32,820 nucleotides of DNA. Source: Armatimonadota bacterium (lineage in GTDB: Bacteria; Armatimonadota; Fimbriimonadia; Fimbriimonadales; Fimbriimonadaceae). The DNA is taken from assembly GCA_016223145.1 (NCBI GenBank), contig JACRPN010000003.1:1-32820 (forward strand), read 5' to 3'. Positions 5,544-32,820 of the stretch are shown piece by piece. A program made the translations under genes and the position numbers. Numbering within the stretch: position 1 is the first letter of the stretch; every line of letters starts with the position of its first letter. Under the pieces are notes generated by a model, which saw only the letters and a program-made list of their open reading frames with translations, did no database searches and was not told the origin of the DNA.

Positions 5544-5852
5544 GACACGCCTCGCCGGGCTTGTGGCGCCCCTTACGTGGTGCAGAATCTCGGTGACGGC
5601 GAACCCAGGGCACGCGGGGCGCGACCCCGGGCTTCTCTCTGAGACCCCTTGCGGGGTCATCGCTCAACAATCTGCTTTGGGGGTTAGCATAACTCCTCGC
5701 TGCCACAAGTGGGTACCAAAGTCTCCAGCGGGCGGGGCGAGCTCCTTCGAACAGCCGGACTTTGCCTCAAAGCCCAACCTGAGCATGATGTTCGGACCAG
5801 GTTCAAGTAAAGTTTGCAGAAGCAACAAAATGGACAGAGGAGTGCAGTCGCT
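5544..5852 (+). other. Intergenic region before the RND operon
   Basis: I find no convincing gene here. It holds a hairpin GACCCC-TTGC-GGGGTC at 5643-5658, similar to the second stem of the REP units at the right end of the window. The following AT-richer stretch (about 5665-5700 and 5780-5830) is the likeliest place for the RND promoter, but no convincing -35/-10 pair is visible. Confidence 0.45.
5836..5842 (+). promoter_or_regulatory. Ribosome binding site AGAGGAG for RND adaptor
   Basis: AGAGGAG ends 10 nt before GTG at 5853. This favours that GTG as start over the TTG at 5814, which lacks an equally good site. Confidence 0.55.
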
Positions 5853-31800: not shown

Positions 31801-31991
31801 TCGGGCGGCTACGTGTTCGGGAGTTGACGTTCGAGGTCGCGCCGGGACTCAAGGTCAAGTCGGCGAAGGTCTCGAGAGGGAAGTACTCCTTCGGCTCGAC
31901 GATCCGGCAGGACGGCCAGTCCGTGACGCTGATCCTCGAAGGCCCGGTGCAGGTGGACGAGGGCGAAAGGTTGGAGACTCTGCTGGGATAG
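28827..31991 (+). CDS. GH116 family glycosidase with inserted sandwich domain, Tat-exported
   Basis: 1054 residues from ATG 28827 (open upstream to 28752, where the sequence looks non-coding). The N-terminus has a twin-arginine signal, TRRDVLSGAGTLALGMAL. The N-terminal beta-sandwich begins ELKWIGMPVGGIGSGQVYVG, typical of the GBA2/GH116 family. It is interrupted by about 155 residues (FEDFEDGTYSRWKVEGTAFG ... FISFLIGGGAHAGRTCMNLV ... GGWGHIVVDRIEF) that resemble a beta-sandwich found attached to GH32-like enzymes. The alpha-barrel follows: YAFEGVECCAGTCQHVWNYA, whose Glu594 fits the nucleophile, and YNTLDAAW, whose Asp706 fits the acid/base, by comparison with GBA2 and TxGH116. GH116 members cleave beta-glucosides, xylosides or glucosylceramide. 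The substrate here is unknown. It stands alone. Confidence 0.85.
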   Translation: MPRRPLTRRDVLSGAGTLALGMALPKELSEKLTRGFPGLKQATLVPADKGLDPKWVKSLFERGKPTVYGPDELKWIGMPVGGIGSGQVYVGGDGKLWYWDLYAPGTSSQFNSAGAGHYEHPMDPASGKKGIDISVRGPLFGKGQRRETTQSAILRPPVAKSVTEIVVHESAPSKNAKLTTIEVTQETWTPLIPLDAVGSSWPLAVLECTIRNKSKTDDTDPFIKLALPNEIGKYTIPDIEIERSATENRSPGLAMAIHSAKSADRAPKGPERAPFVFEDFEDGTYSRWKVEGTAFGSRPFKVDELPDRLKTLKPTGTWLANSHESRHGEDSPASDQHLGKLTSADFVIDRPFISFLIGGGAHAGRTCMNLVVEGKVLRTAVGKNQVRLDWANWDVKDLLGKTAHLEIVDAEAGGWGHIVVDRIEFRDVPVSTVADVSLMPDFGTMAIAALGSGIEKEAQIGVFHAPANEPPASNGGVSVGFHLKPGESKTLTFVVAWHFPNFGPSPGELASITDIAKQKKHYAKRFKDAADVIRQFAKRKDELYDKTKLWIDTWYDSTLPYWFLERVYIPLNTLQTSTAWWLDSGRFYAFEGVECCAGTCQHVWNYAQSVARIFPELERDTRERVDYGIGFREDGALDYRAEAHKIIAHDGQCGTIIRTYREHTMCPDDSFLRRIWPKVKKSVQRMIQEDPNKDGVLEGWQYNTLDAAWKGKISWISSLYAAALQVGALMADEMGDPAFAKECRAIVAKAHDEIPKQLFNGEYFQMERDASAPQSVGYGPGCHVDQVLGDSFLWQIGVEPVLPRDKVKTALKNLYKYNFSPDAGSYRNAMQAVIKGGRWYAMPGEPGLLMTTFPKGGAEVASGKGADTWSAGYFNECMHGFEYQAAAHMFAEGLIEEGMTVIRSIHDRYSAKKRNPFNEIECGDHYARSMASYGAFLTLCGFSYHGPRGRIGFAPKLKPEKFKAPFTASEGWGTYEQSRSSTSLKASYAIKFGRLRVRELTFEVAPGLKVKSAKVSRGKYSFGSTIRQDGQSVTLILEGPVQVDEGERLETLLG

Positions 31992-32014
31992 GAACCCTCC
32001 CGACCCTGGGTCCC

Positions 32015-32064
32015 CGACCCCGAAGGGGTCCCAGACCGCTAGCCGGATGTCGCAGACACCGGGC
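32015..32064 (-). repeat. REP unit C (inverted copy)
   Basis: Two hairpins (GACCCC-GAA-GGGGTC, and GATGTC-GCA-GACACC with one G-T pairing) joined by CCAGACCGCTAGCCG. It is an inverted copy of REP units A and B. A half-unit hairpin GACCCC-CAA-GGGGTC follows at 32090-32104. Together with A and B it brackets the transposase remnant. Confidence 0.8.
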
Positions 32065-32110
32065 ACGAACGGCGCACCTCCAACCTCCCGACCCCCAAGG
32101 GGTCGCACAT

Positions 32111-32495
32111 TCACTCGAAATACCGCTCGTCGATTTCGATCCCAAACTCCGTCAAGATCGCCCGGAGCTCATCGCCCGACGAAACGGTCCGATGGTGCCC
32201 TTCCTGATCGGCTATGTAATCGGCGACCTTCGAAACGTCTCCATGGCTAACGGTGAACGCCGCATAGCCCTCCTGCCACCGGAATCCCTCCCACGCAGTG
32301 GGTCGCCTGGACCCCAAGCAAGAGATCAACATGATCGGTTGTGCCTCCAATTTGGATGGAGAATGCGCCGAGTCCCCGAGCCGCACCGCCGAGGTAGGCA
32401 TGCAAATCATCCTTCCAATCAGGTGCGATGGAGGGTGCCCGGTGGAGGGTTGAGAAGATGACATGGATTCTTAGGTTGAGGTAGGTGGAGGCCAC
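32111..32495 (-). pseudogene. Decayed REP-associated tyrosine transposase (Y1/IS200-like)
   Basis: Two frames are needed. The first (GTG 32495 downward: STYLNLRIHVIFSTLHRAP, ... GTTDHVDLLLGVQAT) is the N-terminal half with the HUH region; the second (... WEGFRWQEGYAAFTVSHGDVS, then KVADYIADQEGHH ... GIEIDERYFE) is the C-terminal half with the catalytic-Tyr helix. The central stretch that normally joins HVHLL to WQEGY is missing about 25-30 residues, and the frame shifts there near 32310, so this is a broken gene. HUH has become H-V-D. In the RAYT class a single-copy transposase mobilises nearby REP hairpins; here REP copies lie on both sides. The family assignment is confident; the exact deletion end-points are not. 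Confidence 0.8.
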
Positions 32496-32548
32496 GAGGG
32501 GATTCTGGCACCCCTCCAGGGTGCCGGGTTGGGAATCGTCCTCGCAAG

Positions 32549-32596
32549 CCGGTGTCTGCGACACCCGGCTAGCGGTCTGGGACCCCTTCGGGGTCG
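32549..32596 (+). repeat. REP unit A
   Basis: Hairpin GGTGTC-TGC-GACACC, linker CGGCTAGCGGTCTGG, hairpin GACCCC-TTC-GGGGTC. It shares almost all bases with unit B and is inverted relative to unit C. A smaller 7-bp hairpin GGCACCC/GGGTGCC lies at 32507-32525, just upstream of the transposase start. Confidence 0.8.
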
Positions 32597-32638
32597 GAAT
32601 ACCCAGTTTCGGAGAAGTTAGGCGGGGGGATGATCATG

Positions 32639-32687
32639 CCCGGTGTCTGCGACACCCGGCTAGCGGTCTCGGATTCCTCCGGGGTCG
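32639..32687 (+). repeat. REP unit B
   Basis: Same first hairpin and linker as unit A (ends 43 nt upstream), but the second hairpin is degenerate (GATTCCTCCGGGGTC). Confidence 0.75.
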
Positions 32688-32711
32688 AGGGAATTGGGCG
32701 GTGGGCCCTGA

Positions 32712-32820
32712 TCACTTCTTGAACGCCATGACCTCCACGAGGTGGCGGCCGGTGTTGGCGGAGTTGGCGGTCATCGTCACGCGCAGATACCGGACCTCGC
32801 GGGGCTTGAACTTGCACTCG
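32712..32820 (-). CDS. C-terminus of a discoidin-domain protein (runs off window)
   Basis: The last 35 codons of a minus-strand frame ending in TGA at 32712-32714 read ECKFKPREVRYLRVTMTANS then NTGRHLVEVMAFKK. VRYLRVTMxxNSANTGRHLVEV is the closing strands of an F5/8 type C (discoidin) carbohydrate-binding domain, as found at the end of many secreted glycosidases. The gene begins outside the window. A longer frame exists on the same strand here in another phase but is a shadow. The family call is good; the catalytic part is unknown. REP unit B lies 24 nt beyond its stop. Confidence 0.65.
   Translation of the reverse strand, partial: ECKFKPREVRYLRVTMTANSANTGRHLVEVMAFKK

Follow-up and report, generated by a model that had tools for sequence, protein, structure and literature searches.

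The window, by which we mean the whole 32,820-nt stretch of DNA that was analysed (C3:1-32820 of a 3.87-Mb genome, 97% complete), contains an element that fills the 720-nt gap between two convergent genes, on the left a GH116 gene ending at 31991 and on the right a frame ending at 32712 that is probably, on a tentative reading, the C-terminal end of an F5/8 type C domain gene. Read along its transposase gene, which lies on the minus strand, the element starts with two repeat units, b and then a, each arranged as H1-CTAG-H2, continues with a hairpin H3, the start codon, the broken gene and the stop codon, and closes with an inverted H3, H2, CTAG and H1. The complete unit has three hairpins in roughly 100 nt, namely H1 (GACCCC..GGGGTC), H2 with nTAG at its foot (CC..GG), and the gene-side H3. 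Matches in the list are to R1, a covariance model built from 10 units of the source genome, and L011 is an intact relative of the transposase gene in the same genome.

32672-32686, minus strand: H1 hairpin of unit b, partly degenerate
32640-32659, minus strand: H2 hairpin of the second upstream unit b, with CTAG at 32660-32663 (R1 match 32572-32688)
32581-32595, minus strand: H1 hairpin of upstream unit a
32549-32568, minus strand: H2 hairpin of upstream unit a, with the CTAG tag at 32569-32572
32507-32525, minus strand: H3 hairpin, directly upstream of the start codon (within R1 match 32500-32597)
32111-32495, minus strand: remnant of a subclass-1.2-type Y1 transposase gene (from the Pfam halves, the frames and intact relatives)
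32090-32104, plus strand: H3 hairpin of inverted unit c, directly downstream of the stop codon (R1 match 32014-32113)
32043-32062, plus strand: H2 hairpin of inverted unit c, with CTAG at 32039-32042
32016-32030, plus strand: H1 hairpin of inverted unit c
5558-5660, minus strand: solo degenerate unit of the L011 subtype (R1 E 0.006)

An earlier note on this DNA had described two direct repeat copies and one inverted copy, and all three were recovered: the direct copies (32549-32596 and 32640-32687) are 92% identical, and the inverted copy (32014-32062) is 98% complementary over 49 nt to the copy at 32549. The two hairpins and the GCTAGC core that it had recognised are present, but they are not the whole unit, to which the third hairpin H3 (32507-32525 and 32090-32104) also belongs. 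The same note had placed 1410-1484 in the family because of a shared foot, and had suggested on that ground how the family spread. This stretch is not a member: it is absent among the R1 matches, and when aligned to 24 units it scored at most 24, within the shuffled range (95% point 25). The suggested link to the spread of the family is likewise unsupported; the bare GCTAGC is found at seven places in the window. The CTAG-bearing hairpins at 1405-1490, outside the repeat family, directly follow an rsgA-like gene and are possibly a terminator. The solo unit at 5558-5660, whose neighbours are an amidohydrolase gene and an HlyD-type gene, aligned to L181 with a score of 92 (33 or less for 200 base shuffles). 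The fold energies of three single window units were unexceptional when compared with shuffles (z -0.3 to -2.0); it is recurrence and covariation that speak for the hairpins.

The transposase gene has its N-terminal half in one frame and its C-terminal half in the next, with a loss near 32295, and Pfam Y1_Tnp matched both halves in different frames (profile positions 3-61 and 90-121), with scores of 21.1 and 20 bits that are slightly below the curated cut-off of 23. These data confirmed the internal deletion and frame break proposed in the earlier note, together with the change of the second catalytic histidine (HVH reads HVD). The loss is smaller than the 25-30 residues that had been estimated, amounting to approximately 56-59 nt (19-20 codons) and costing the frame as well: by hand count, the TH and GF codons are separated by 10 nt in the window gene, by 66 nt in L046 and by 69 nt in L045. 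In the other frame the tyrosine region can still be read. Given what is known of the chemistry of this family, the protein predicted from the window copy cannot work as a transposase; this copy is a fossil, and what makes it of interest is the family to which it belongs.

An IS200-class enzyme with relatives in several phyla

The element has the structure of a REPtron, with tagged palindromes on both sides of a transposase gene and further copies around the genome, and had been read as a decayed RAYT REPtron. That reading is right in structure, including the decay of the transposase, and wrong in enzyme class, since the intact relatives are IS200-class enzymes and not class-2 RAYTs in the strict sense. 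Two of them scored 61.4 and 65.7 bits with the IS200/IS605 model (cut-off 55), and with the NCBIfam model of REP-associated tyrosine transposases (NF047646) L045 reached 20.8 bits versus a cut-off of 80 and L011 gave no match. Intact relatives carry the subclass 1.2 signature (DH[IV]H, WQ, Y---Q--HH) instead of the class-2 Y motif, which ends in NP according to the text of Quentin et al. 2018 (PMC6006769). In ten aligned intact relatives of 136-151 aa, D54, H55, H57, W93, Q94, Y113, Q117 and H121 were invariant, H120 was shared by nine (L011 has R), and the C-terminal tail was present in all ten except the 136-aa L072, which is short in that part. The solved chains found, eight in all, were IS200-type transposases, e.g. 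ISHp608 (the others typed from terse names). In a tree that leaves 30 of its 55 inner branches open and has long IS605 rows, two Bacteroidota signature proteins fell among the relatives, and six longer Y1 genes of the source genome split from these proteins on long branches.

The source genome gave 12 Y1_Tnp matches (11 above cut-off), four of which are short relatives of the window gene (C5:138613, C11:195558, C5:206448 and C5:144745, the last matching without the N-terminal part of the profile). The gene at C5:206448, L011, has an intact frame and intact motifs, with a related unit on its flanks, in agreement with the suggestion of a sister enzyme. The GT[AG]G tag of REPtrons is found at the sister locus (GTAG) and not in the window (CTAG).

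Relatives of the window protein were present in 29 of 85 genomes of the family, source genome included, and a contig scan by motif patterns confirmed at least 573 relatives, the best 80 of which were kept as named loci. Judging from their titles, approximately 40 of these best 80 were from Verrucomicrobiota and approximately 20 from Planctomycetota, and the rest included Acidobacteria, Armatimonadetes, Bacteroidota, Proteobacteria, Sumerlaeota, Hydrogenedentota and Fibrobacteres; the named loci were chosen partly by subclass 1.2 motifs and are no independent test of motif frequency.

Tagged cores, inversion and covariation of the repeat units

We wrote a tagged-core rule (H1-gap-TAG-H2) on the family set, with 32 loci scored with the window (L012 and L066 dropped, no start motif) and 31 left after a 150-nt flank requirement, and applied it unchanged to the named set, where both flanks were available for 78 of the 80 loci (one of the 78, L106, duplicates the record of L070 in the family set). 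A tagged core in the expected orientation was found in 32 of 64 family flanks versus 5 in antisense, and in 80 of 156 named flanks versus 13 in antisense, with dinucleotide-shuffled flanks giving 14/310 and 15/780, respectively. Among the 78 named loci, 30 had it on both sides and 50 on at least one. The own upstream/downstream inverted pair of a locus beat every mismatched pair in 21/31 family loci and 55/78 named loci; the remaining 10 and 23 failed to do so, some of the failing family loci having broken frames, where the flank definition fails. Own direct pairs also ranked first (8/31 family, 24/78 named loci) because the hairpins resemble each other in either direction, and above the 99% point of mismatched pairs we found the own inverted pair in 51/78 named loci versus the own direct pair in 15/78.

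The geometry of the units was regular: the T of TAG followed the end of H1 at 7-9 nt in 90/110 units, the spacing between H2 and H3 was 18-24 nt in 79/102, and H2 started with CC in 101/110. The tag was TTAG in 49 of the 110 units, GTAG in 36, ATAG in 16 and CTAG in 9, only TAG being constant, by the rule used. The top triplets were AGC (37/64 family and 105/156 named flanks; 8 and 32 in antisense) and GCC (32/64 and 85/156), which score at least as high as TAG because the foot reads TAGCC in most units; some Verrucomicrobia units have CAGCC there. The three-hairpin form was plain on a Bacteroidota plasmid (L201), with a tagged core on both sides and H3 recognised by eye.

The R1 search for covariation covered 28 of 30 loci (L168 and L180 left out) and gave 41 matches, 29 of them distinct. 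In the resulting alignment, which was fitted to the R1 structure (the starting alignment had the L011 rows off by one in H1), 82.5% of cells pair versus 76.9% when shuffled, and two-sided changes are seen in 11 of 20 pairs versus 4.3 in shuffles. Slid controls were each lower on every measure; one of the five measures, further pair types, was reached by 39/500 shuffles.

The longer Y1 genes of the source genome were also considered as carriers of the three-hairpin unit, and rejected: eight loci were tried, of which seven had an open frame with an HUH motif and six had both flanks (the frames were chosen by script, and that of L020 is doubtful), and in these six loci the tagged core was one-sided in two and both-sided in none. 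Three of the longer Y1 loci, L014, L015 and L016, had strong inverted repeats of another type (scores 85, 63 and 57).

Dispersal of the units and nature of the element

The source genome holds repeat copies elsewhere, as the earlier note had expected, with at least 31 R1 matches at E<=0.001, 10 of which are the model-building units, and at least 37 at E<=1 (match counts are lower bounds, from up to 44 candidates scored per genome). When 24 units were assigned to subtypes, 15 were nearer the L011 type, 5 nearer the window type and 4 undecided, four of the 24 (L159, L160, L162 and L164) being the yardsticks themselves. R1 matches (E<=0.001) occurred in 29 of the 85 family genomes and followed the enzyme closely: units were present in 26/29 genomes with it versus 3/56 without it (Fisher p 2e-15, kinship not corrected for), the exceptions being G001, G020 and G042 (enzyme, no R1 matches) and G013, G039 and G056 (R1 matches, no detected enzyme). 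G056, with at least 13 R1 matches, has either orphan repeats or a missed gene.

Among the 150 matches listed, 99 units had no neighbour within 300 nt, and 27 neighbour pairs lay within that distance, 18 inverted and 9 direct. In pairs with gaps of 300-700 nt among the matches listed, 12/14 were oriented as in the element, and 11 of these 12, window and L011 included, hold a TnpA match. In three gene-less inverted doublets (L207, L208 and L209), six hairpins were recognised by eye, a short spacer standing where the gene would be. One locus, L205 (G007:C1:2391500-2392500), has an element-like inverted pair with a 441-nt gap and no recognisable TnpA. Outside the family, the ends of the L132 element (roughly 100 nt) recur elsewhere in five Verrucomicrobia genomes, several as inverted pairs (40 candidates scored per genome). 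The repeat arrays of L065 and L068, from two species of one genus, differ by one unit of ~115 nt, a copy-number difference that shows array change; the frame of the tnpA beside this array looks broken.

Taken together, these data make it likely that the window holds a decayed REPtron-like element of a REP-associated enzyme lineage of IS200 class (subclass 1.2 type). The alternative that survives best, though we consider it unlikely, is an IS200-type insertion sequence of the conventional kind, mobile as a whole, of which the solo repeats would be remnants. The element and IS200/IS605 insertion sequences (subclass 1.1) have the same enzyme class and both have hairpins near the ends, and movement as a whole would account for the homology among L132, L133, L134 and L151, which in five of six pairs spans from 125-135 nt before the start to 90-125 nt after the stop and ends near H1 (at +33 in L133/L134); syntenic locus pairs also occur (L112/L136, L054/L055, L057/L058). 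However, the ends are inverted here and are not same-strand hairpins, the gaps between them are gene-sized (387-553 nt) and so leave no room for tnpB, and the units outnumber the genes. Moreover, one long copy was found in each of the five Verrucomicrobia genomes (partial copies in three, one at a contig edge), and a near-identical second full copy was not found in those five genomes or in the source genome.

An ordinary REPtron of a class-2 RAYT, that is, a TnpA-REP with GTAG REPs, is still less probable and, as to the enzyme, already largely refuted. Although it would explain the tagged palindromes in inverted arrays, the dispersed singlets and doublets, and the GTAG tag of the L011 units, it is contradicted by the Y---Q--HH signature in place of NP-ending Y motifs, by the low REP transposase score of L045, by the IS200-type solved chains, and by the separate position of the six longer Y1 genes in the tree. 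Least probable of all is that the hairpins are transcription terminators or host-kept regulators at the RNA level with a gene trapped between them, which the position between convergent genes and the H3 hairpins adjoining start and stop codons would suit, and which is opposed by the recurrence of tag, spacing and gene-centred inversion across phyla, by the tracking of the enzyme by the units, and by the lack of any Rfam match at E<=0.01 in six loci.

The REPtron-like element of an IS200-class enzyme that we favour differs in part from each described system. Subclass 1.2, as presented in the text of Quentin et al. 2018 (PMC6006769), shares with the enzymes studied here the DHVH, WQ and Y---Q--HH motifs, a length of ~147-148 aa, a conserved C-terminal tail and a low copy number. 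That text lists the subclass with REP 'no', as generally lacking the terminal structures typical of IS200 and as mostly from Cyanobacteria and Bacteroidetes, whereas the relatives here are flanked by tagged three-hairpin units and come from Armatimonadota, Verrucomicrobiota, Planctomycetota, others, and one Bacteroidota plasmid (L201). For five class-2 subclasses, the same text describes canonical REPs, hairpins with a 5' GT[AG]G, no more than 1000 nt away from most of the genes. REPtrons and REPINs of class-2 RAYTs, in the text of PMC8266576 and PMC3116915, likewise have a tag at the hairpin foot, inverted doublets, dispersed singlets and the enzyme gene beside its repeats; here, in contrast, the enzyme is of another class, H1 and H3 are additional, and only TAG is constant, some units having CAGCC. 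TIRtrons with double palindromic inverted repeats (Di Nocera et al. 2013, PMC3733652) also have a Y1 gene between inverted repeats, some of which are dispersed palindromes, an arrangement that resembles the closely complementary repeats around the window gene, but enzyme class and tag differ: 20 of 26 examples are subclass 2.1 in the text of Quentin et al. (PMC6006769), and a TAG-tagged second hairpin is not described for TIRtrons in the text of PMC3733652, its figures and additional files aside. In the literature searched, those figures and files lying outside its scope, we found no earlier description of the three-hairpin unit together with a subclass-1.2-type enzyme.

If TnpA works like IS200/IS605 and REP enzymes, its substrate would be the tagged hairpin nTAG-H2 in single-stranded form, with the AG of the tag as a putative guide and cleavage at a CT-like dinucleotide. 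That AG is constant agrees with the guide model in the text of PMC8266576, where the AG of a GTAG tag pairs with the CT cut site. TnpA might then move or copy units in trans, spreading them singly and as inverted doublets without a gene, with the gene itself staying at approximately one copy per repeat type. This would be consistent with few copies of the window subtype, whose enzyme is dead, and more of the sister subtype, which has the intact L011 enzyme.

We lean slightly towards the broader view that this cross-phylum IS200-class lineage (subclass 1.2 type) represents a second, independent kind of REP system, built on an inverted and dispersed three-hairpin unit with an nTAG guide. If so, this second system would disperse as singlets and six-hairpin gene-less doublets, and would show how an insertion sequence can become a REP system while its IS200-class enzyme is kept. 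An IS200-class enzyme combined with REP-like tagged repeats would then be a natural intermediate, or a parallel invention, in the origin of REPs from insertion sequences. What seems new is the pairing of a subclass-1.2-type enzyme with tagged repeats in several phyla, the class having been recorded without REPs in the text of the earlier survey (PMC6006769). The variety of the tag may explain why a survey based on GT[AG]G would miss the units, 49 of 110 having TTAG, 16 ATAG and 9 CTAG. Finally, a tnpA with the same signature on a Bernardetia plasmid (L202), whose protein groups with that of L012, has repeated GCTGCGTAGCTGC palindromes on both sides, a repeat of another type.
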